Source: a virus. Taken from it: a stretch of DNA of 23,789 nucleotides. A program made the position numbers and the translations under genes. The notes under the pieces were generated by a model. It saw nothing but the letters and a program-made list of their open reading frames with translations. It was not told the origin of the DNA and made no database searches. Below, one piece after another: positions 3,265 to 20,872 of this stretch. Position 1 is the stretch's first letter. Each line of letters begins with the position of its first letter. Where the stretch lies: positions 1-23,789 of IMG/VR virus record IMGVR_UViG_3300031825_000069. One strand, written 5' to 3'.

Positions 3265-4041
3265 TTACTTGACGCGTGGCCGGGCAAGAGCTGCCCCGCC
3301 GAGTCCGGCAATTCCACTTACCAGGCCGTTGATGTCAAACTGATTCGCCTGGTCTAGCTGCTGCTGCTGCAAGCGGAAATTGGTGATACTGTCCGCCACG
3401 CTCGACGCCTGCTGCGAGGAGCGCCCCTGTAGTCCCATCAGGAGATCCCGAAGGAGCGCCTGGCTCTGCTGCTGCCGCTGCTGCTCAGCGTCGTACAGGC
3501 TGCCGATCGCGCCGGCTCGCGCGGCCCCGAACTGGCTGCCGATCGCGCCGGAGACCGCACCACCGTAACTGCTGTCATCAATGCCGCGCCCCGCTTGGTC
3601 CGCCACCGCGGCCCCCTGCGCCTGGCGCTCCATCGAGTTGTAGGCGTCCATCCGCGGCGCCAGGAACGCGGCGCGCCCCTCCGGTGAAAAGTGGTCCGTG
3701 TTCGCCTGGTTGATGAGCTGGTTGATGGAGTCCCACATCGGGCCTTGCGCGGCATAGGCGTTCGACAACCCGAGTTGCATCATCCGCTTGCGCGTGCCGG
3801 CGGCTCCGGACCCTTTGCCGCCGTACATCAGCGGCGGCGCCGGGTCTCCGGTCTGTGCGGTTGCGGCACTGGCCGGCGCTGCCGGTGCTGCCGTCGTGGG
3901 CGCCGTGGTCATCGGCGAGCTGTGCAGCATCCCGCCGCCCGGCACCCCCGCGCCGCCTGGCTTCGGCGCCGCCCCAGGCCCCAGCGTGCGCTGTGCCATC
4001 ATTCCCGCTAGCTGCCCCCGAACCCCGTATGGTGAAGTCAT
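3265..4041 (-). CDS. Putative internal virion protein, Gly/Pro/Ala-rich N-terminus
   Basis: This encodes 258 residues; an AAAAGGGGG Shine-Dalgarno stands just before the ATG. Residues 20-75 are low-complexity Gly/Pro/Ala/Thr. Residues about 85-240 are helical and Gln-rich (for example YDAEQQRQQQSQALLRDLL). The last 20 residues are Gly/Ala-rich and hydrophobic (INGLVSGIAGLGGAALA), resembling the amphipathic ends of ejection proteins. The gene ends 11 nt before the larger internal-virion candidate and was probably co-transcribed with it. I recognise no family. The role is assigned only by composition and position. Confidence 0.6.
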   Translation of the reverse strand: MTSPYGVRGQLAGMMAQRTLGPGAAPKPGGAGVPGGGMLHSSPMTTAPTTAAPAAPASAATAQTGDPAPPLMYGGKGSGAAGTRKRMMQLGLSNAYAAQGPMWDSINQLINQANTDHFSPEGRAAFLAPRMDAYNSMERQAQGAAVADQAGRGIDDSSYGGAVSGAIGSQFGAARAGAIGSLYDAEQQRQQQSQALLRDLLMGLQGRSSQQASSVADSITNFRLQQQQLDQANQFDINGLVSGIAGLGGAALARPRVK

Positions 4042-4064
4042 CGCGCCCCCTTTTCACATCGGCC

Positions 4065-4535
4065 CTATTCGGCCCACGCTCCGAACCATTGCGCCTGCAC
4101 AGCCGCACGGTTTAACTGTCCGTTAGCAGCGTCTCGCAGCTCCACACTGTCGCCGGCATGGAACTCGGCCCGGTTTCCCGGGTCTCCATTCCAGGCGCGA
4201 TCAGTGCCCACGCCTGCCGCTGCTATCCCGGTAGGCGCCCCGTTTATGTAGACCTCCACGCGGTAGAGGCCGCGGACAGCTACGCTGCGCTGTGTTGCGT
4301 AAGAAAGGCCTGTTACGTAGCCTCCCCATGGCGCTACCCACGGAGCACCGGGGAGTTTTCCGCCCTCGCGCGGCATCGGCTGCGCTATCGTGGAGCGGTT
4401 AACGTTGGGCCGGTTCCATCCAGTAACCACAAAGGTGGCGGGGACTGCTGCCGCCGGGGCGCTCCGCAGTGGGCGCGCCCATGCCACTACCCCCAGCGTC
4501 AAAACGAGCATCCAACCTGCAAACTGCTTATTCAT
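4065..4535 (-). CDS. Exported protein carrying a copy of the tail-fibre tip domain
   Basis: This encodes 156 residues; GGGAGA lies about 8 nt before the ATG. Residues 1-20 look like a signal peptide: Lys3, then a hydrophobic core (FAGWMLVLTLGVVAWA), followed by an Ala/Pro-rich stretch with possible cleavage around residues 28-33. Residues about 38-156 match the C-terminal domain of the tail fibre encoded just upstream (4555-6396, residues 490-613). Shared features include GWxRxNV, GYVxGxSxAT, Y(R/K)VE(V/I)YING, GVGTDR-W, AGDS and AVQAQ-FG-W. The gene starts 20 nt after the fibre stop. The similarity is read directly from the two proteins. A role as a surface-displayed or secreted receptor blocker (superinfection exclusion) is inference; a second fibre-tip subunit assembled in the virion is the alternative, though a signal peptide would be odd for that. 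Confidence 0.75.
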   Translation of the reverse strand: MNKQFAGWMLVLTLGVVAWARPLRSAPAAAVPATFVVTGWNRPNVNRSTIAQPMPREGGKLPGAPWVAPWGGYVTGLSYATQRSVAVRGLYRVEVYINGAPTGIAAAGVGTDRAWNGDPGNRAEFHAGDSVELRDAANGQLNRAAVQAQWFGAWAE

Positions 4536-4554
4536 CTTTGGTTCTCCCGGTTAC

Positions 4555-6396
4555 TTAATCGGACCAGAACCCGAATAGTTGCGCCTGAACTGCTCGGCTG
4601 TTGAGCGCGCCGCTGCGGTAGTCGTAGAGATCGATGGAATCGCCCGCCGCGAAGGCCACAAAGCCCGAGGCAGTGCCGTCATTCCAACCACGATCAGTAC
4701 CCACACCGCTGGCAATAAGACCCGAGGCCACACCGTTGATGTAGATTTCGACTTTGTAGGTGCCACCCACGGAAAGCCCGTCGTCGGTGGCCCAGGAGAC
4801 GCCCGATACGTAACCGTTGCGGATCGGTACCACTGGGGCGGGGATGTTGTTGCCGCCGGCCCCAATGCGCGCCATCTTGCCCCCGGTAGTGCCTACGGTG
4901 CTCACGTTGGCCCGGCTCCATCCGCTCATGCAGAAGTCCCGGTATCGCCACTGCAGCGCCGATCCGTCATAGGTCAGGCTCTTGCCGGCGTTGGACGGGA
5001 AGGACGGGACAGTCTTCCCGTTGATCTTCGCCACCGTGGCCGCCGCCGTGGTGCCCGAGAGGTCGCCTCCCAGCGCATGGGTTGAGCTGGTGGTGAGCGC
5101 TCCGTGCTGCGCGTCGGTAATCGCCCCCGTTAATTCGCTGAATGCCGCCTGTGCCCATGCCGGCTCGTCGGCGCCCATCTTGAGCACGTAGTTAGCGGTT
5201 CCCTTGGCAAGCCGACTCCAGACCGGGGAAGCCCCCTGGGCCGTGATGATGTCCCCGCGAATAGGGGAAGCCGCTGCGGTGTCTGGGTGGGTGGCGGAGA
5301 GCAAATTGTGATTACTGCTGGTGGAGGCGGTCTCCGTGGCTCCCATGCCGCACTGCACCCAACTGCTGCCGTTCGAGCGGAACAGTGTCCCGCCGTCGTC
5401 GTCCGTCGCCAGGTAAAGCGTGCCGTCAGGCACGGTGTTCGCTGCAGGCCGAGAAGCGGTCAAGCCGGCCTGAATCACACGCGTACCGGGCGCTTCGAAC
5501 GCAGCAGCCGCGGAACCGGAAGCCGCCACGATATGCCCGGCTGTCAGCCCGGAGAACGTCAGCTCGGAGAACGCTACGCTACCCCATGCCGGCTCGTTCG
5601 CCCCCATCTTAAGGATAGTGTTCGCGCTGCCCTTCGCCAGCCGGCTCCACGTTGGGGAGGCGCCCTGCGCGGTGATGAGGTCCCCGCGGGTCGCGCTGGC
5701 CGCCGTCGTGTCCCCGTGCCGTGCCGAGAGCAGGTTGTGGGCGTCCGCGCTCCAGGCGATGTCCGTGCCGTCGCTCCGGAGCACCTGCCCGTTGCTGCCA
5801 ATCGTCAGCCGTGCCCAGGTAGGTGAGGCCCCTTGCCCGGTGATGATCGATCCTCGCGCCACCGCCGCGGCCGTCGCGTCACTGTGTCGCGCCGAAAGCA
5901 ACGCGTGCGTGTCCGTGCTCCAGGCGATATCGGTGCCATCGCTCCGGAGCACCGTTCCGGAGGCCCCGATGGTGAGCTTCGCCCATACCGGAGATGACCC
6001 TTGGCCGGTTACCAGCGCCCCCCGGCTGCAGCTCGCCGCTGTCGTATCGGTGTGGGTGGCCGAGAGGAACAGATGCCCCACTGCCGAGGCCGCCTGAAAG
6101 GCAAAGCTGGTTGCTCCGGTCGCCGTGAGCACGTGGCCCGTGGTAAGGCCCGTCTCCGTGTGGTCCGCACCGGTGAGCTGGTGTCCGCGGCCCGTCAGGT
6201 CGGTATAGGCTACGGTGTGACTGTCGCTGCCGTTGTGCCGGTGCCCGTCTACCGCATCAAAGGCGATTCCGGATTCGTCGCCCAGTCCCGGCGGCTGCAG
6301 CGGTCGTACCGGCGTGGTGCTGTGCGGCTGCACTGGCACAGGCCCCTGAGTGCGCTGCGCCTGCGGGCCTTTCCCGGGAGTGCCGCCGAATCTCAT
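4555..6396 (-). CDS. Tail fibre / receptor-binding protein with tandem repeats
   Basis: This encodes 613 residues; the ATG overlaps the hub gene's stop as ATGA, suggesting translational coupling. A longer upstream extension of the frame is rejected because it runs through the hub gene. Residues 1-107 include a Pro/Gln-rich linker (residues 10-35) and a His/Thr-rich segment. Residues 108-275 are three contiguous 56-residue repeats; a fourth lies at 363-418 after an insert that contains DGTLYLATDDDGGTLF, a short fibre motif. Residues 490-613 form a distinct C-terminal tip domain, probably the receptor-binding head. Repeats of this type, with SDGTDIAW, are common in phage fibres. Receptor specificity cannot be read from the sequence. 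Confidence 0.82.
   Translation of the reverse strand: MRFGGTPGKGPQAQRTQGPVPVQPHSTTPVRPLQPPGLGDESGIAFDAVDGHRHNGSDSHTVAYTDLTGRGHQLTGADHTETGLTTGHVLTATGATSFAFQAASAVGHLFLSATHTDTTAASCSRGALVTGQGSSPVWAKLTIGASGTVLRSDGTDIAWSTDTHALLSARHSDATAAAVARGSIITGQGASPTWARLTIGSNGQVLRSDGTDIAWSADAHNLLSARHGDTTAASATRGDLITAQGASPTWSRLAKGSANTILKMGANEPAWGSVAFSELTFSGLTAGHIVAASGSAAAAFEAPGTRVIQAGLTASRPAANTVPDGTLYLATDDDGGTLFRSNGSSWVQCGMGATETASTSSNHNLLSATHPDTAAASPIRGDIITAQGASPVWSRLAKGTANYVLKMGADEPAWAQAAFSELTGAITDAQHGALTTSSTHALGGDLSGTTAAATVAKINGKTVPSFPSNAGKSLTYDGSALQWRYRDFCMSGWSRANVSTVGTTGGKMARIGAGGNNIPAPVVPIRNGYVSGVSWATDDGLSVGGTYKVEIYINGVASGLIASGVGTDRGWNDGTASGFVAFAAGDSIDLYDYRSGALNSRAVQAQLFGFWSD
5143..6075 (-). repeat. Four 56-residue repeats in the tail fibre
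   Basis: Repeat units lie at 5908-6075, 5740-5907, 5572-5739 and 5143-5310, each 168 bp long. The first three are contiguous, and a 261-bp insert separates the third from the fourth. Each unit starts with His and the pattern LLSA-H-DTTAA, then RG-(I/L)-TGQGASP-W-RL. Units 1-2 end with VLRSDGTDIAW and units 3-4 with a variant containing LKMGANEPAW, so the units form two sub-families. This is a fibre shaft that could gain or lose units by recombination. Confidence 0.85.
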
Positions 6397-8789
6397 CGCG
6401 TGTAAACTCCCAGCCGCGCGCTGCGGCACTTCATCGCCACTGATTGCGAGCCGGAGAGCTTCAGCCCCCCGAAGCGCCCCCGGATCGCGGCCCCGCAGCG
6501 CGCGATCTTGGAGACGTAGCCCGAGGAAGCGGACCCCAGCGCCAGGGAGAAGGTGGTGCCGCTCGCCGCGCCGTCCAGGATCGGGGTAGCAGTCACGGTC
6601 TGGCTCGCCGCCGCGTCGAAGTCCGCGCCCACGAACACCCACTCGAAAGTTGAACCCGGTCCAGCGTCTAGCGCCTTCCCCTGCCAGTACCACGCCACCG
6701 CGGAGCCGTCGTCGGTCAGCAGCGCCGCGTCCGCCGTGCTCCGGTGCAGGTAGTGCACCTTGCCCGTGGCCGGATCTCCGCCGATGAGCTGGCCGGCGTC
6801 ACCGCCGCCCCGCTTCAGCGTGCAGAAGCAGGAGAAGCCCCAGTTCGCGTACTGGGTCCAGCCGCGCCGCATACTGTCAAAGCCCGGCTGTAGGGCGCCG
6901 CGGGTCGTCAGGTCAAAGACCAGCGCCTCGCTGTTCGCGGTCCCTCCGGACGGCGTGTAGGACACGTGCAACCGCGCGCGCTCGTCCAGGCCGAACGCCA
7001 CGTCCGGCCGATAGGCGAGCGGGATGCGCCGGAGCACGCTATCCACCGGCTCGGAGACCACCCACGTTTCGAAGAGGCCCGGCTGGCTCCGGTTCGGCGC
7101 CAGCACGCGGACGCCATCGGACGCAAGGAAGAGAATGAGTCGATCGTACACCGCCACCGCTTCCCGGGCGTCAAGCCCCACGTCGGCGCGCTTGTAGAAC
7201 GTGTAATCCGCCCACCCCGAGCCTTCCAGCGTGTAGATAGCTCGGTCGCAGAACACCAGGAGCTGCCCGTCGAACTCCACCAGCCGCCGGATGTGGTCCC
7301 GGCTGGAGATGTCCAACCAGCCGGGCGCGTTCGGGTCGGTCGGCTCGCGATCCCCCCCGAACTCCTCCGGATAGCCCAGTCTCGAGAGATAGAGCCGCCA
7401 CGGATACCAGGTATCGGCGCTGCCGTTCCCGTCCGTGTCGATGTAGGCATGCCCCGCCACGAGGCGGCTATTCGCCACCGCGTAGGTCTTGGCGATGGGT
7501 GGGGCAATCTTCGCCGACACCAGCTCCGGAGCGTTGTCGATGGCGATCTGATCTTCCCCGAGGGTATCCACGAAGGTGAGCGTGCCGGCGCCGGTGTTCG
7601 TGATGGTCTGCACCAGGCGAGGCCGGGCAAACTCGCCGTCCTTCCGGCTCCGGTAGACCAGCACGCGGGTGATATTGGTAGTGTCCGCGTCGCCCGCTAC
7701 GTTGACCGTTACGCCGAGCGCCGCGTCATCCGCCGGAACGTCGATCTCCGCGGCCACGGAAGGGTTACTCTCCCGCACGATCACGTCTTGCCCGTGGCTG
7801 CTCTCGGTCTCCGCGTAGGTCGCGTAATAGCTGTAGTGGTCGGGCACCAACGGCCCTTCCAGGCGCGCCTCGTCAAAGTAGAGCGCCAGGCTGTAGCTGT
7901 TGCCGCTGCCCTTCTCCACGAACTTGATACCGAGGCCCGTGGAGGCCGTGCGGCTGGCCGGCGGAATGCGGTCTAACGGGACCCTGATCCGTACCCAGGT
8001 CTCCTTTTCGCGCGCCGTGAAGGTCGGGAAGAGTGAGAAATCGAGCGTGCCGCTGTTGTCCTTCACGCCCACCTGGTAGACCATTCCCACCTTCTCGCTG
8101 TAGACCCAGAGCGAGAGGAACAATCCTTTGCTCAGGTCTACCGTCGCCCCGCTGCTCCAGACCCGCGAGACGGAGCTGCCCACCGCCCCGCTGCCGGAGG
8201 CCGTGAGCTTCATGCAGTTGGTGCCCTCCCGCATCAGCGTGGCGTTGTTGGTGGCTGCCAGGGCGCTCCCGGAGACAGTCCAGGCGCCGCCGGAGGTGTT
8301 GCTATCGAAGGTTTCCAGCAGGGTACTGGAAAGCGCCACGGTGGGCGTAGCTGGAGCGGAGAGCAGCGTCACCGCGGCCCAGCTTGGAGCCGGCTTGCGA
8401 CGCCGCACGGCATCCACGCCGTTACCCGCGTACACGCGTTCTTTCCAGCCGAGGAAGTCCATCGGCGCGCCACCGGTCAGGCCGGTCACTACACTGGAGA
8501 ACGAGCCGGCGCCGTCGTCTTCATAGATGGCGGTATTCGCCTGCATCAGGAAGATGCCGTTCGCCCCGCTGCGGCCGTAGTAACGGTGCAGCCCGCGCAC
8601 TTTGTTAGCGGTCGGTGCCGTGCCGTTGTAGGCCACCCGCCCCAGCCGCTTCGTGAGGGTCTCGTCCTCGAAATCGACGTTCTGCGCGTCGCTGGCCTGG
8701 TCGTCGCCGATCTCCGTCGGGTCCTGGTCTCGCACCAGGCCGCCCCCGAACCGCCGGAAGAGGATCTCGGTTGCGCCGTAGAGTCCCAT
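6393..8789 (-). CDS. Tail hub / nozzle-like protein (P22 gp10 or T7 gp12-like role)
   Basis: This encodes 798 residues from an ATG shortly after the preceding stop. The N-terminus, FGGGLVRDQDPTEIGDDQASD followed by AQNVDF and KRLG (residues 14-50), is the typical opening of podovirus tail hub or DNA-stabilisation proteins. The body has propeller-like beta repeats with phrases such as VYAGNGVDAV, RLVEFDGQLLVFCDRAIYTL and YDRLILFLASDGVRVL. Residues about 150-320 look like an inserted jelly-roll or carbohydrate-binding domain (ETFDSNTSGGAW, then YFDEARLEG). It is the largest gene in the window and lies between the adaptors and the fibre, where the hub gene is expected. The role is inferred from the N-terminal signature, size and position; enzymatic activity is not indicated. 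Confidence 0.7.
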   Translation of the reverse strand: MGLYGATEILFRRFGGGLVRDQDPTEIGDDQASDAQNVDFEDETLTKRLGRVAYNGTAPTANKVRGLHRYYGRSGANGIFLMQANTAIYEDDGAGSFSSVVTGLTGGAPMDFLGWKERVYAGNGVDAVRRRKPAPSWAAVTLLSAPATPTVALSSTLLETFDSNTSGGAWTVSGSALAATNNATLMREGTNCMKLTASGSGAVGSSVSRVWSSGATVDLSKGLFLSLWVYSEKVGMVYQVGVKDNSGTLDFSLFPTFTAREKETWVRIRVPLDRIPPASRTASTGLGIKFVEKGSGNSYSLALYFDEARLEGPLVPDHYSYYATYAETESSHGQDVIVRESNPSVAAEIDVPADDAALGVTVNVAGDADTTNITRVLVYRSRKDGEFARPRLVQTITNTGAGTLTFVDTLGEDQIAIDNAPELVSAKIAPPIAKTYAVANSRLVAGHAYIDTDGNGSADTWYPWRLYLSRLGYPEEFGGDREPTDPNAPGWLDISSRDHIRRLVEFDGQLLVFCDRAIYTLEGSGWADYTFYKRADVGLDAREAVAVYDRLILFLASDGVRVLAPNRSQPGLFETWVVSEPVDSVLRRIPLAYRPDVAFGLDERARLHVSYTPSGGTANSEALVFDLTTRGALQPGFDSMRRGWTQYANWGFSCFCTLKRGGGDAGQLIGGDPATGKVHYLHRSTADAALLTDDGSAVAWYWQGKALDAGPGSTFEWVFVGADFDAAASQTVTATPILDGAASGTTFSLALGSASSGYVSKIARCGAAIRGRFGGLKLSGSQSVAMKCRSARLGVYTR

Positions 8790-8791
8790 AG

Positions 8792-9475
8792 TTACCCCGC
8801 CGTCCAGTCGTATTGCTCCAGCGCGCCGTCCCAGTCGCCCAGGCTGTTGTAGTTAACGGCCATCCCCCAGGCGAGATTGCCCGCCAGCACGCCCGCGCCG
8901 AGGCTCTGATCGGCGCCCTGCTGCACGCCGTTCCAATAGATCCGCGCCACGTCCCCGGAAGTAATCTCCAATTCCAGGGTGTCACCGGCCTGATAGTTCA
9001 CGAAGTCCAGGCTCAGGTCCAGCAGGTTCGTGGTGGACGCGGCCACGCGCTTGTACAGCAGTAGATGCTGCGAGCTGATCCCGGTAACGTCCACCAGGAA
9101 CCCCACGTGGTTGTCATGGTCCGCGTAGCGCCCCAGCACGTAAAACGGCGCGTTGGCCGAAGGCGTCTTCACCGTGATCTTGGCGCGCCCGTTGGCCCCC
9201 AGGCCGGTGACGTACGCCACCGTCAACCCGCCGGCCAGGGTGGTGAGCGTGGCTGCGTTGGAGCGGATGGCCCACCCGAACTCCAGGCCGGGGCTATAGG
9301 TCGTCTGCTGATCGGGCACCAGCCACGTCTTTGTGCCATCGCTGGACACACCGAGGAGATCGTGACCGGAAGCCGTGTCCGCCCGGTTGAACGTGTCCCG
9401 AAAGGTCCCGGCCGCTCCGGGAGTAGCCGCCGCGGCGCCGGCCGGGAAGCGAATGCGGAACAACGGCATGGGCAT
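8792..9475 (-). CDS. LamG/ConA-like virion protein
   Basis: This encodes 227 residues. The start at 9475 is chosen because GGAGG lies 8 nt upstream, immediately after the preceding stop; a longer frame overlaps that gene. Residues about 24-225 form a beta-sandwich pattern with TFRDTFNRADTA, ITVKTPS, YVLGRYADHDNHVGF, GDTLELEI and IYWNGVQQG. This is typical of phage concanavalin/LamG-like domains that begin with DxFNRAD. Such domains bind glycans or decorate capsids and fibres. The gene ends 2 nt before the hub gene. No catalytic residues are evident. Confidence 0.7.
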   Translation of the reverse strand: MPMPLFRIRFPAGAAAATPGAAGTFRDTFNRADTASGHDLLGVSSDGTKTWLVPDQQTTYSPGLEFGWAIRSNAATLTTLAGGLTVAYVTGLGANGRAKITVKTPSANAPFYVLGRYADHDNHVGFLVDVTGISSQHLLLYKRVAASTTNLLDLSLDFVNYQAGDTLELEITSGDVARIYWNGVQQGADQSLGAGVLAGNLAWGMAVNYNSLGDWDGALEQYDWTAG

Positions 9476-9480
9476 AGCGG

Positions 9481-10284
9481 TTACCTCCAGCGAGTGGGAA
9501 TCCCGGGCGTGCGCTGCCAGCCTCGGCCGAAGTCCGTAGCAATCGTCGCCTGGATCACCGCCCCCAGCGTTTGCATCGCGGACCGCGGCGCCCAGCAGCC
9601 CCAGGGGTCGGCGGTAGCTAGCCGTAGTTCCCACGGCGCCGGGGCGCGGGTGTAGAGCCGGGTGAGTTGGATCGCGCCAGCGAAGGGCTGGGAACCGGAG
9701 GTGCGCGCGCCGACGTTGAGCGTATCTAACCCAGCGTCCAAGGTCTTGCTGGTGCTGGATGTCCCTACTAGCACGCCGTCTACCCATAGCTCGTGAGCTG
9801 TGGCGCTACGGCTCACAAAGGCAAAGACGTGGGGGCAGCCATCCGCTAACGTGGTATGAGCCGCGATAATCAGATTGACGCCACCATAGAACACCCGGGT
9901 CCCTACGGTCGGGGCGTTATCATACGGCAAGAGGAAGAACCGGTTTGCGGAAGTATCCCCCTGATTGATGGCAAACGCGGTATGAGTGTTGGTGTATGAG
10001 GTGGCACTAGCCATCAGGATCACCGTCCACTGGGACCGGGACGACATTAGCGACGCCGGCACTGCTCCGAATGCGGTAACTCCGTTAGTGCCGTTGTAGG
10101 TCTGCTCCGGGCCGACCATCCCGCTCGTCCAGGAGACGCCGCTGGTATTCGTTCCTCGGTATCGGCCCACCAGGTCACGGGGGTTCCCTCCCCGCTCCCA
10201 TAGGGGCAAGTCGAAAGCCAGTCCCCGCGCGAGCGGATGCCGCGGTTGCAGGACCGGCCGCCGCGGCTTCACAGGCAGCCGCAT
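9481..10284 (-). CDS. LamG-domain virion protein
   Basis: This encodes 267 residues; the ATG overlaps the preceding stop as TAATG. Residues 1-35 are basic and proline-rich with a HPLARGLAFDLPLWE motif, common at the N-terminus of phage LamG proteins. Residues about 40-225 show the LamG strand pattern: FGAVPASLMSSRSQWTVILM, HVFAFVSRSATAHELWVDG, LNVGARTSG, FAGAIQLTRLYTRAPAPWE. Likely a glycan-binding or decorative protein on the virion. The coding sequence looks richer in A+T than its neighbours, which could reflect recent acquisition; I have not computed this. Confidence 0.72.
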   Translation of the reverse strand: MRLPVKPRRPVLQPRHPLARGLAFDLPLWERGGNPRDLVGRYRGTNTSGVSWTSGMVGPEQTYNGTNGVTAFGAVPASLMSSRSQWTVILMASATSYTNTHTAFAINQGDTSANRFFLLPYDNAPTVGTRVFYGGVNLIIAAHTTLADGCPHVFAFVSRSATAHELWVDGVLVGTSSTSKTLDAGLDTLNVGARTSGSQPFAGAIQLTRLYTRAPAPWELRLATADPWGCWAPRSAMQTLGAVIQATIATDFGRGWQRTPGIPTRWR

Positions 10285-10745
10285 TACTGAATCTCCGGCT
10301 CATAGTACTGGTAGCTCACGCGGTGGTCGCCCGCCGTGGAGCTAATCGCGTTTGAGGTGTTGTTCTTGATCGCGATCCCCCAGGACAGACCCAGCGCCCC
10401 CAGCGGCGCCGTGTCGAAGACCCCGTAAAACGCCTTCGCGGTGGTGGCGGTCACGACAATGGTCCCGAGAAGCGGTGCGTTCTCGATGGTGATCGCCGCG
10501 TCACTTGCTCCCGCGTTGTCGTCGGCGATGGCGCCATCCCCCCGAATCAGGTAAACCTCGTAGAGTTGCCCGGCGGTTGGCGCACTGCCGCCGCTGGTGA
10601 GCTTCACGAAGATCAGCGCCGCCGGCCGCTCCGTGGTGTTAGAGAGCAGCGTAGCTTGCCGGGCCGCTGCGCTCGCCAGGCTGGCCAGGGTGATGGTGAA
10701 GACGGCGACGGCATCGTTCAGCGCTTGCCGAATCTCGTTAGGCAC
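10284..10745 (-). CDS. Small beta-rich virion protein
   Basis: This encodes 153 residues starting at GTG 10745, inside the last codons of the preceding gene (8-nt overlap). The start is set by GGGAGG 5-6 nt upstream. Residues 15-35 (TITLASLASAAARQATLL) and 42-70 (AALIFVKLTSGG, LYEVYLIRG) follow a pattern I know from small structural proteins of tailed phages, with alternating beta strands and a YYEP end. The exact role is unknown. Position among decoration and tail-linked proteins suggests a minor head or tail component. Confidence 0.65.
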   Translation of the reverse strand: MPNEIRQALNDAVAVFTITLASLASAAARQATLLSNTTERPAALIFVKLTSGGSAPTAGQLYEVYLIRGDGAIADDNAGASDAAITIENAPLLGTIVVTATTAKAFYGVFDTAPLGALGLSWGIAIKNNTSNAISSTAGDHRVSYQYYEPEIQ

Positions 10746-11232
10746 GGGACACCTCCCACGCGGAGGCGAAGTCTTCCGCTGCAATCGCGTTCGGCATGAA
10801 CGGCGCCCCCACAAACGCGCGCCCCACCCGCGGCGCCGTGATCTGTTGCATACGGCTGATCACCGCTTCCGCCGCCGCTTCCACCGCGTCGAGGTGCGCC
10901 GGCTCGATCCCCGGATAGCCGTTGAGCGCCGCCCGGAACGCGGCGAAGTCATCCAATGAGAGTTGCGTGGGTTCGCCGAAGTACGGCAGGCTGATCCCCG
11001 GCATCGCTTCCGTCACGGCGTTGAGGAACGTGCGCCCGGCCGTCAAGCCTAGCGCTTTCAGCACCGCGCCGCCACGCAGCTTCACGCCGACCTTGGTCTC
11101 CGTCACGGACAGGCGCGGCTCGTGCAGCAGCGCAAAGCCTTGATCGAGCGTCTTCCCGGCGTAACCCACGCCTTCCGGGTCGTCGCGCAGCTCGGCCACC
11201 AAGAGCGCGAAATGTTCTGGTTCCAGGGGCAT
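10738..11232 (-). CDS. Conserved phage protein of the head-tail region, unknown function
   Basis: This encodes 164 residues from ATG 11232, 5 nt after the preceding stop. No strong Shine-Dalgarno is visible, so translation may depend on coupling. The longer frame begins deep inside the upstream gene and is rejected. The opening, EHFALLVAELRDDPEGVGYAG, resembles an N-terminal motif (x-L-x-DP-x-GxGYAG) of small phage proteins near the connector genes. The rest is helical and alanine-rich. I do not recognise a function. Confidence 0.6.
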   Translation of the reverse strand: MPLEPEHFALLVAELRDDPEGVGYAGKTLDQGFALLHEPRLSVTETKVGVKLRGGAVLKALGLTAGRTFLNAVTEAMPGISLPYFGEPTQLSLDDFAAFRAALNGYPGIEPAHLDAVEAAAEAVISRMQQITAPRVGRAFVGAPFMPNAIAAEDFASAWEVSRA

Positions 11233-11237
11233 GCTCG

Positions 11238-17387: not shown

Positions 17388-18332
17388 TTAAGCGAGCGAA
17401 GCAGATACATGGCTTTCCAGCAGCTCCTGCTGCTTGGTAGCCGAAAGGTTGTGGAAGTCCACCGTCTTGACCGGAGCCGGCGCGTTCCCGCCGCCCAGCA
17501 CCGGCACGGCCGCGTCAGCCTGCTTGTTCGTGGCGTACTTCGCCACCTCGGCCCGCGTGATCCCCTGGATGGCGCCGCGAAGTTCCGTGGCGAGCTGGCC
17601 CAACTGCTCCGCGTTCGGCTGCACGCCGTACCGGCCTTCGTACGTGTTGAGCAGCGCGTCGCGGAGCACGGGATTACCGAACTCCGGGAACTCGGTGGAC
17701 AGGTGCGCTAGGTCCGTGGTCCACCGGGCCGTCAGTTGCGCCTGCTCCGCTTCCTGCCGCGCCTGCTGGTATTGCTCCTGCTGCGCGGCCATGAACTGTT
17801 CCTGGCGGTACGTGCCCAGGAGAGAACGGCGCTCGGCCGGCGTGCACTCATCCAGGTCCAGCCCTTCGGTAGCGGCCCACTCCGCGAAGGCGTCCGCTTC
17901 CGTCGCCGGCTGCTGGAGCTGCTGCCCGGACTGCACGGCCGCAATCCGCTCGGAGAACTGTTCGGGCGTGATACCCAGCGCCGCCAACTGCTGCACCGAT
18001 GCCGCCCAACCGCCCACCGGCTCCAGCTCCGCTAATCGGGCCTGGAGCGCGGCCACATCGACCTCTGCCGGCGGATCGACCTCGGCCGCCGTCTCAACGT
18101 CCGCGGCGCCCGGCTCAGCATCCGCAGCCGCGGGAGCGTCAGCCGACGCATTCAGTGGCGCGTTCTGCTCAATCCAGGTGCCCCAGTCCGTAACCTCGGC
18201 AGGTTCGCCACCGGCCACGTCCGTTACGGTGTCCGTGGCTCCTTCGTCGGCGCCGTCGCCGCCATCGCCCGTAATCCCCAACACCAGAGCGCCAAAGAGC
18301 GCCATCATCATCAACCCGAAAAGCGTAAACAT
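17388..18332 (-). CDS. Scaffold-like capsid assembly protein with N-terminal hydrophobic segment
   Basis: This encodes 314 residues; GAGG lies about 7 nt before the ATG. Residues 20-110 are acidic and Ala/Pro-rich; residues about 165-240 are a Gln/Ala/Glu-rich helix or coiled coil (RQEQFMAAQQEQYQQARQEA). The C-terminus carries PVKTVDFHNLSATKQQELLE. Position between portal and capsid and acidic-helical composition fit a scaffolding protein. The unusual part is residues 1-20 (MFTLFGLMMMALFGALVLGI), which look like a membrane segment rather than the usual soluble start. Confidence 0.65.
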   Translation of the reverse strand: MFTLFGLMMMALFGALVLGITGDGGDGADEGATDTVTDVAGGEPAEVTDWGTWIEQNAPLNASADAPAAADAEPGAADVETAAEVDPPAEVDVAALQARLAELEPVGGWAASVQQLAALGITPEQFSERIAAVQSGQQLQQPATEADAFAEWAATEGLDLDECTPAERRSLLGTYRQEQFMAAQQEQYQQARQEAEQAQLTARWTTDLAHLSTEFPEFGNPVLRDALLNTYEGRYGVQPNAEQLGQLATELRGAIQGITRAEVAKYATNKQADAAVPVLGGGNAPAPVKTVDFHNLSATKQQELLESHVSASLA

Positions 18333-18403: not shown

Positions 18404-20380
18404 CTATCGCGCGGGTGTCCCTGGCCGCATCAAGTGCTTGGCAAGTTCCACCTGCGCCTTCTGGTCGGCCAATCCGCGCTCATGCTCGCGTTGGGCCTCG
18501 GCGTTCTGCGCTTCGGCTTCCTGCGCCGCCTGTTGGGCTTGCTGCTGGGCCATCTGCCCCTCTTGCTGCTGCCCGGCCGCTTCCGTCGTCGCCGCGGCTT
18601 GCTGCGCCTGTTGGGCCTGGGCCTGTTGGGCTTGCTGCTGCTGGATCTGCGGGAGTTCCCGCTCCACGATCTCCGCCAACCAACCCAAACCGACCTCGTG
18701 AAGCATCTGCAGCAGGATCGGCCCCATCGGACCCGCCACCATATCCATCAAGCCCATCCCGAGCCATTCGGAAAGCTGCTGTTGCCGGATGGCGTCGTTG
18801 TCCTCCACGCCTTCCGCCAGCTCGACAATCACCTCTAACGGCCCAATCTCGTCTCCGCTGATCGTCGCCGTCGTTTGCTTGTTCGCCTTGCCGGGAACCG
18901 ACATCATCCGCGGCTCGCGGTAGCGCTCGGCCAGCACGGTGAGCACGTGTTTAGCGAAGTCTTCCAGCCCCACCTTCCCCAGTAGGGCCGGCGAGTTCAT
19001 CCGGGTATTGTCCGCCTGCTGGAGTAGCTGAATCGCGGACGCCGCCGAGACCCCGGTAGGTACCCCGCCCTCGGACACTTCCTGCTGCCCCGCCAGGTGC
19101 CGCATCTCCTCGCGCTGCTGGTCGGAATACTGGACGATCCACTGCGGGATCGAGGGAGGCGACACGGCTTGCGGCGGGGTCGAGTTCGCCGCGTACTCAA
19201 TCACCTCATCGGGCGCGCTCGTGATGGACTTCGGGTCGATCTTCGAACCCTTGTCCACCAGCCACTTCGGCCCGCGGTGCAGGCGGATCATTTCCGCCAT
19301 GTTGCCCAGGCCCCGGTTCAGCTCCCGCTGCGGAGAGATGCACCCCTCGATCAGACCCATCGGCCAGAGGCGTTTAGGGAGGTGGCGATAGCCGAGCATC
19401 TTCACCGGCAGCGGGTTCTTCAGCCCGAGGAACGGCAGCGGCAGCGCGTCTCGCTGGAACAACACCCGGTCGCCGGCCACGATGACCATGCGCCCCTGCG
19501 GGTACTCCCGGCACGGCTTTTCGTACAGCGTCTTGGCCGTGGCTTGCCCCTCGCCGTCCGGCGCCGATCCTGCGGCCCCGGATGATTCCGCTCCCGGCAC
19601 CAGGCTGCTGAAAACGTTTTCCGTGTCGCCCGTCTCGGCTTCCACGCCGGCACCCGCTTCCCCGAAGACGGACCGGAACCAGGACAACGGCCGCTTCCGG
19701 GCCACGATGCACCAGGAGATATCGCGCCAGTTCTCACACGGCTCGGGGAACACGTCAAACGGCGTGAGCACCTCCGTGCACAACTGCCCCACGGGCGCAT
19801 ACTGGCCGGTCACCTTGCCGGTCGCCAGGTCCGGCACCGGGATCTTGGCCATCCGGCTCGGGTCCCAGTAGAGATGCAGGAAGCCACAGCCGAGGAGAAT
19901 CCGCGTCACGTTCGCCTCGTGCTCCAGCAGTTCCATATCCTCGCCGTGCCACCAGCCGTGCAGCGCCTGGGTGCCCTTCTGCGCGCGGGCCTGGTCCTCC
20001 GGGTCGTCGGAGTCGTCCGGCCGCGCCCGCGGAAGCTGCCGGGCTCGAGAAAGTTTCGACGCCGCCACGTCCACGAGGCCCGGGATCTGGTTGTACACCG
20101 GCAGCACCCGCCAACTCGGAATGCGGGTCGGTTTAACCAGCTTCTTCTGCCGGTCATCCCAGGAGCGCCACTGCTCGCCGGCCATGAACGCCAGACAGGT
20201 GGCCCAGGTCTCCAGGAGCAGCACCTTGGACTCTCGGGAGTAGCGGTAGCGCTTCTGCACGAGATCCAGCAGCGGGTTGCTGCCGGTGTCCAGGTAGCCG
20301 TTCAGCTCCGCTTCGGCCGTAGCTCGCTCCCGCGCGTTGATCGGGTGGTCGGCGCCCGCACTCGCTCCGGGCATGGTCAT
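18404..20380 (-). CDS. Portal protein
   Basis: This encodes 658 residues; the ATG overlaps the preceding stop as ATGA. Residues about 55-110 (LAFMAGEQWRSWDDRQKKLV, then LPVYNQIPGLVDVAASKL), about 160-215 (NVTRILLGCGFLHLYWDPSR, later LTPFDVFPEPC) and about 335-400 (GLIEGCISPQRELNRGLGNM, then GPKWLVDKGS) follow the podovirus (P22-like) portal pattern, with ring-forming and clip regions in that order. Residues 578-650 are an extreme Gln/Ala-rich helix, resembling the long C-terminal barrel of P22-type portals. It forms the dodecameric channel for packaging and ejection and binds the terminase. Length is normal for this type. Confidence 0.86.
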   Translation of the reverse strand: MTMPGASAGADHPINARERATAEAELNGYLDTGSNPLLDLVQKRYRYSRESKVLLLETWATCLAFMAGEQWRSWDDRQKKLVKPTRIPSWRVLPVYNQIPGLVDVAASKLSRARQLPRARPDDSDDPEDQARAQKGTQALHGWWHGEDMELLEHEANVTRILLGCGFLHLYWDPSRMAKIPVPDLATGKVTGQYAPVGQLCTEVLTPFDVFPEPCENWRDISWCIVARKRPLSWFRSVFGEAGAGVEAETGDTENVFSSLVPGAESSGAAGSAPDGEGQATAKTLYEKPCREYPQGRMVIVAGDRVLFQRDALPLPFLGLKNPLPVKMLGYRHLPKRLWPMGLIEGCISPQRELNRGLGNMAEMIRLHRGPKWLVDKGSKIDPKSITSAPDEVIEYAANSTPPQAVSPPSIPQWIVQYSDQQREEMRHLAGQQEVSEGGVPTGVSAASAIQLLQQADNTRMNSPALLGKVGLEDFAKHVLTVLAERYREPRMMSVPGKANKQTTATISGDEIGPLEVIVELAEGVEDNDAIRQQQLSEWLGMGLMDMVAGPMGPILLQMLHEVGLGWLAEIVERELPQIQQQQAQQAQAQQAQQAAATTEAAGQQQEGQMAQQQAQQAAQEAEAQNAEAQREHERGLADQKAQVELAKHLMRPGTPAR

Positions 20381-20661
20381 GGTCCGTACTCCCGCTCGCG
20401 CTCAATTTCGAATTCCGCCGCGTCCCCGTACTGCCGCAGCGGCACCAGCGGCGCCGGGTTCACCTCCACGCCGGCCCGCAGCAGGATCGCCTGCCGCTCC
20501 CGGGCATACTCGGCTTCGCGCTCCCGGGTGGCCTGGCGCTCTTCGGTGGCCTGCGCTCGGTCCGCGGCGCGCTCCTCGCGGACGGCCGCGCGCTCCTGCT
20601 GGTGTGCCCGCTCCCGCCAGAGCCACGCCGCGAGCACCGCCAGGGTCACGAATTCCGCCAC
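20377..20661 (-). CDS. Small membrane/coiled-coil protein in the packaging module
   Basis: From GTG 20661, 1 nt after the preceding stop, this encodes 94 residues. A longer ATG frame is rejected because it overlaps the whole preceding gene. Residues 2-15 are hydrophobic (AEFVTLAVLAAWLW), and residues 16-60 are a highly charged Arg/Glu helix, probably a coiled coil. The end (VNPAPLVPLRQYGDAAEFEI) looks more ordered. The layout (N-terminal anchor plus coiled coil) resembles an inner-membrane spanin in miniature but there is no partner gene here. Function unknown. It is translationally coupled to the portal gene. Confidence 0.6.
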   Translation of the reverse strand: MAEFVTLAVLAAWLWRERAHQQERAAVREERAADRAQATEERQATREREAEYARERQAILLRAGVEVNPAPLVPLRQYGDAAEFEIEREREYGP

Positions 20662-20662
20662 G

Positions 20663-20872
20663 TTACTCGTTCCGCGCGATGGCCGCGTTAGCCCAGAATA
20701 CACACTCTTCCAGCGCGGTAATGGCGAGGGATTGCTCCCGGGACGCCGGCGTGAGTTGCGCGATCTCTTCCGCAAACTCGCGGGCATAAGCTCGGAGTTT
20801 TCCGTACTTCTCCGGCTGCCCCTCTTTCGGGGCGTGATAGGTGAAACGCTTTCCAATCTCTTCCGGTGTCAT
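20663..20872 (-). CDS. acb2: Acb2/Tad1-family cyclic-nucleotide sponge (anti-CBASS type)
   Basis: This encodes 69 residues, the normal size for the family; GAGGGAG lies just before the ATG, which overlaps the terminase stop as ATGA. The sequence shows the Acb2/Tad1 helical-hairpin signature: RFTYH-P (residues 9-15), then SREQSLAITALEE (44-56) and WANAAIARNE (60-69). Known members form small oligomers that bind cyclic di- and trinucleotides (or the Thoeris signal in the Tad1 branch) and so stop CBASS effectors from being activated in the cytoplasm. Family membership is read from sequence memory; ligand specificity cannot be read here. The packaging-module position means late-type co-expression with terminase and portal, so carry-over or basal expression would be needed to act early. 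Confidence 0.83.
   Translation of the reverse strand: MTPEEIGKRFTYHAPKEGQPEKYGKLRAYAREFAEEIAQLTPASREQSLAITALEECVFWANAAIARNE

Follow-up and report, generated by a model that had tools for sequence, protein, structure and literature searches.

A candidate receptor blocker formed from a predicted signal peptide and a copy of the tail-fibre tip in a short-tailed environmental phage

The window, meaning the whole 23.8-kb virus record that was analyzed, encodes a P22-like portal protein, a small and a large terminase and a major head protein, and belongs to a short-tailed phage whose sole source is environmental DNA. Almost all of its genes are carried on the minus strand, in the order terminase, portal, scaffold-position protein, head protein and a tail or head-completion run that includes a laminin-G-type lectin. 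This run is followed by a large tail protein (6393–8789), the tail fibre P0002 (613 aa; 4555–6396, minus strand), the 156-aa protein P0001 (4065–4535, minus strand) and three further genes with products of 258, 502 and at least 578 aa, which resemble the P22 ejection proteins in size and position. A lysozyme-like motif was spotted by eye in the longest of these products. No sigma-70-type promoter was found near P0001 or the fibre gene.

P0001 starts 19 nt behind the fibre stop codon. Its placement right after the fibre, as given in an earlier sequence-only reading of this DNA, is confirmed at the coordinates above. The gap (4536–4554, minus strand) contains GGGAG 8–9 nt upstream of the ATG, providing the gene with its own ribosome-binding site, and an in-frame stop lies six codons before the ATG, which makes the N-terminus of the protein independent of the choice of start. 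The protein is organized as a predicted signal peptide, a linker and a tip domain. The tip domain (residues 35–156; 4068–4433, minus strand) is a paralogue of the last domain of the fibre (residues 488–613; 4558–4935, minus strand), with 59 identities over 126 positions (47%), 100 bits and an E-value of 1e-29 in the pairwise alignment; an independent search of the record returned the same match at 7.7e-29. All four motifs that had been quoted for the shared domain (GYVxGxSxAT, YxVExYINGxxxG, GVGTDRxW and AVQAQxFGxW) were recovered, and in an all-against-all comparison of open reading frames P0001 and the fibre formed the strongest non-overlapping paralogue pair within the window. The match begins at F35, behind the leader and linker, and coincides with the start of the fibre's last domain, which is the junction expected if a signal peptide and a short linker had been joined to a tip domain. 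Outside the tip domain P0001 has nothing significant in common with the fibre: residues 488–613 are the only fibre segment it matches, and the conserved N-terminal part of the fibre, presumably its virion anchor, is missing. The fibre shaft itself contains three 168-nt repeats (5197–5364, 5626–5793 and 5794–5961), 62–72% identical to the reference copy, and their number could alter fibre length.

The N-terminus of P0001 was evaluated with a home-made scorer, distinct from SignalP, that was trained on a set of 26 familiar signal peptides from E. coli. Residues 1–20 (4476–4535, minus strand; MNKQFAGWMLVLTLGVVAWA^RPL) combine a brief basic stretch at the beginning with a hydrophobic core and an AxA cleavage motif, and reach a score of 15.8 with predicted cleavage after A20 (AWA^RPL). 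This value lies within the leave-one-out range of the genuine E. coli signal peptides (11.6–29.4), in agreement with the signal-peptide-like N-terminus proposed earlier; the best other gene of the window scores 5.4, and only 0.03–0.07% of shuffles match the P0001 score. By hydrophobic peak in the first 40 residues, P0001 ranks second among the window genes, a peak that 1.3% of its own shuffles match. Two arginines, R21 and R24 (+1 and +4), directly follow the predicted cut, and positive charges at these positions would disfavour export. P0001 is devoid of cysteine, and hence of a lipobox, so a lipoprotein reading was rejected and no lipid anchor is expected.

The two tip domains are 55% identical in DNA, show indels and keep the reading frame, and their divergence amounts to a dN of 0.52 and a dS of 1.66 (dN/dS of about 0.3). 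They are evidently old copies, shaped by purifying selection for at least part of their path. At conserved residues, the same codon is used 29 times, compared with 30.5 times expected from codon usage; since this agreement is at chance level, the P0001 tip is not a recent duplicate of the present fibre. P0001 also has the lowest third-position G+C among the window genes (0.66), and it matches the codon usage of the other genes poorly, although its frame does so better than the remaining five. Together, these properties suggest a separate origin or weak adaptation.

The viral collection held one close relative, IMGVR_UViG_3300031825_000072 (L003, L004), which shares 88–92% DNA identity with the window over long stretches. 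Collinearity is lost at 3983–6035 (minus strand), a block that takes in everything after roughly residue 120 of the fibre, all of P0001 and the opening codons of the gene that follows. In the sibling fibre, the first 159 residues are kept at 81% identity and are followed by a different tip, and no copy of P0001 is present in that record. Its slot is occupied by P0004 (L003, 11812–12252, minus strand; 146 aa), which is encoded on the strand opposite to the fibre; among the six frames, its own gives the best codon fit. On the same home-made scorer P0004 reaches 12.4, with a cut at AYA^DPG. It resembles neither P0001 nor the sibling's own fibre, and database searches, protein family libraries included, returned no relative. 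The pairing of a fibre with a copy of its tip, which the sequence-only reading had proposed looking for in related phages, was not found in the sibling, which combines another tip with an unrelated signal-peptide gene. It follows from the exchange of this block that the fibre tip is replaced in concert with a predicted exported protein, which need not copy the tip; on this comparison, the slot behind the fibre is a site for exported proteins in this phage group. The end of P0004 overlaps the stop codon of the sibling fibre. A second non-collinear block, at 8790–11236 of the window, contains the gene of the laminin-G (concanavalin-like lectin) protein at 9481–10284, which makes a second exchangeable surface-binding module possible.

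Beyond this record, viral contigs scanned at the protein, profile and DNA-pattern level yielded only the two copies of the tip family described above, and tblastn searches of genome contigs, phages and plasmids found no relatives of the tip. Searches with P0001 against Pfam, PHROGs, NCBIfam, PADLOC, PDB chains and phage records returned no hit, which leaves a single genome as the basis for the arrangement. Weak phage matches of the fibre tip (E 0.3–4) were rejected, since they were partial and their targets were large structural or tail proteins or one short open reading frame of a tail region. AlphaFold models were unreliable (pLDDT 35 and 47), and fold searches gave nothing at E < 0.1. With regard to the host, a terminase profile detected no prophage in genome contigs and no tRNAs were found; distant relatives of the phage infect Actinobacteria as well as Vibrio.

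Two known arrangements place a second copy of tip sequence beside a fibre or tip gene. In phages Mu and P1, silent tip copies are stored in the invertible G segment, together with a recombinase. P0001 is likewise a second tip-domain copy next to a fibre gene, but differs in being a complete gene in the same orientation as the fibre, with its own start and signal peptide; only short, imperfect inverted-repeat pairs were detected around the tip segment, none of which brackets it, and an invertible cassette was thus rejected. The Bordetella phage mtd system, in which a diversity-generating retroelement has a repeat of the tip's C-terminal sequence alongside, also resembles the present locus in that this repeat adjoins the tip gene. 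A diversity-generating repeat was rejected on the basis of the low DNA identity of the two copies, their indels and their conserved frame, and no reverse transcriptase was recognized among the window genes.

A closer parallel in function is provided by small exported proteins that shield phage receptors. In T5, Llp is encoded immediately downstream of the receptor-binding protein pb5, and purified pb5 added to cells blocks infection by itself (PMC9586334), indicating that the principle of an adhesin acting as a blocker is sound. BF23, a close relative of T5 with another receptor-binding protein, has an Llp without homology to that of T5, which fulfils this role for BF23's own receptor (PMC4728585). 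Truncated R-pyocin fibres are reported to be sufficient for binding to target cells (PMC6363177). P0001 shares with the Llp proteins of T5 and BF23 (beside oad (pb5) and hrs, respectively) its small size, predicted export and position directly behind the gene of a receptor-binding protein, which we infer the fibre P0002 to be. The likeness extends to exchange: the blocker and the receptor-binding protein are replaced together between close relatives in both groups, and the T5 and BF23 blockers lack homology to one another, as do P0001 and P0004. In contrast, Llp, a lipoprotein with no sequence relationship to its receptor-binding protein, works on the receptor from the periplasmic side, whereas P0001 is a cysteine-free copy of the fibre tip. 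The Cor lipoproteins of T1 and phi80, which like the proposed P0001 are small exported exclusion proteins directed at the phage's receptor, differ from it in the same respects, as they have no fibre domain and P0001 has neither a lipobox nor a sequence match to them. Of the traits that characterize Llp and Cor, P0001 thus has a predicted signal peptide and the adjacency to a presumed receptor-binding gene, and lacks the lipobox and sequence similarity.

Anatomically, P0001 would be a stand-alone form of the fibre's C-terminal tip, equipped for export. We tentatively assign it a function in receptor blocking, exerted during infection or upon release at lysis, with a confidence just short of even; this function is favoured because the sibling swaps its tip and a signal-peptide gene as one block, as T5 and BF23 do. 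We infer this function from the tip-only homology, the signal score, purifying selection and the block exchange with the fibre tip. The wider formulation, that this is a phage exclusion factor made from the phage's own adhesin, consisting of a signal peptide and a tip domain and swapped with the fibre tip upon a change of host range, is proposed more cautiously, at rather less than even chances. P0001 would be produced late, together with the fibre; a cleavable signal peptide would take it across the inner membrane, releasing residues 21–156, and the mature protein would sit on the tip's receptor, either nascent in the envelope or, after lysis, on debris and neighbouring cells. Receptor occupancy would then reduce superinfection and the number of progeny lost to dead cells. 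P0001 would in this way perform the job that Llp has in T5, using the adhesin's own domain rather than an unrelated lipoprotein. Of the earlier proposal of receptor-masking exclusion, the anatomy holds and the function is the best supported, given the sibling swap and the T5 and BF23 parallel, while receptor binding by the fibre tip and by its copy, export and arrival at the surface are putative. The accompanying remark that no named system has this design needs to be narrowed, because receptor blocking has a named precedent in Llp; a blocker built from the adhesin appears new, and literature searches that covered subscription papers in part gave no precedent for a secreted fibre-tip copy.

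Several considerations weigh against receptor blocking or would restrict its form. In a Gram-negative host, a signal peptide reaches only the periplasm and the outer membrane would still have to be crossed, so that P0001, confined to the periplasm until lysis, would act either on newly made receptor or, once set free, on that of debris and neighbouring cells; secretion from a Gram-positive host would be direct. At 47% identity its specificity may differ from that of the fibre, folding of the tip may depend on the trimeric fibre shaft, and the sibling's signal-peptide protein is not a tip copy, which is a point against a blocker made from the tip. The history of the two tips also bears on two other explanations. 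P0001 might carry the tip of another phage lineage and shut out competitors that use it, instead of preventing re-infection by the phage itself, in keeping with the chance-level codon agreement, which excludes a recent duplicate, and with a third-position G+C that is the lowest of the window (0.66); an old duplication followed by drift would look identical, however, and no competitor with a P0001-type tip was found in the collections searched, so we regard this as unlikely. That the tip and P0001 block is wholly different between close relatives, and hence exchanged often, is what would be seen if P0001 were a tip displaced by exchange and retained accidentally or as a reserve for recombination, its hydrophobic leader being coincidental. 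Such a leftover seems very improbable, considering the intact frame with its own ribosome-binding site, a signal score above 99.9% of shuffles, the dN/dS of about 0.3 between the tips and the absence from the flanks of inverted repeats typical of a switching cassette.

Gene order and the contents of the sibling slot bear on two further possibilities. P0001 lies among virion genes, just ahead of the P22-ejection-like block (258, 502 and at least 578 aa), and two-protein fibres exist, as in the T5-like LtfA/LtfB pair (PMC4728585). It could therefore be an accessory virion part, a second tip subunit whose hydrophobic N-terminus is buried in the fibre or tail structure; this appears improbable for a protein that lacks the conserved N-terminal part of the fibre, has no copy in the sibling record and has an N-terminus scored as a signal peptide that ends in an AxA cut. 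Alternatively, P0001 may be an exported adhesin or moron that changes the surface of the infected cell for a purpose such as aggregation or attachment rather than for phage blocking. Morons typically have low third-position G+C and are exchanged freely, and in the sibling the slot is taken by an unrelated gene for a predicted exported protein, encoded on the other strand; we nonetheless give this account only a small probability, as it leaves unexplained both why the domain is specifically that of the fibre tip and why P0001 is located behind the fibre in the same orientation.

If receptor blocking by P0001 holds, a blocker made from the tip would fit its receptor from the outset and could change along with the fibre, whereas T5-type blockers, being unrelated to the adhesin, must each evolve a fit to a new receptor. 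Exclusion genes would then be predictable in uncultured phages as signal-peptide proteins that share a domain with the tip of a neighbouring fibre.

Two other genes of the window also begin with hydrophobic sequence. The scaffold-position protein (17388–18332, minus strand) opens with the strongly hydrophobic MFTLFGLMMMALFGALVLGITG and is negative on the signal-peptide scorer; it is possibly a membrane-associated scaffold, or its true start lies further downstream. In the interval between terminase and portal, a small open reading frame (20380–20664, minus strand) encodes a hydrophobic N-terminus and, behind it, an extended charged segment of helix-like character. It resembles an inner-membrane spanin, in a position unusual for one, and its match in PHROGs is a weak one to a head-tail connector (E 0.12).
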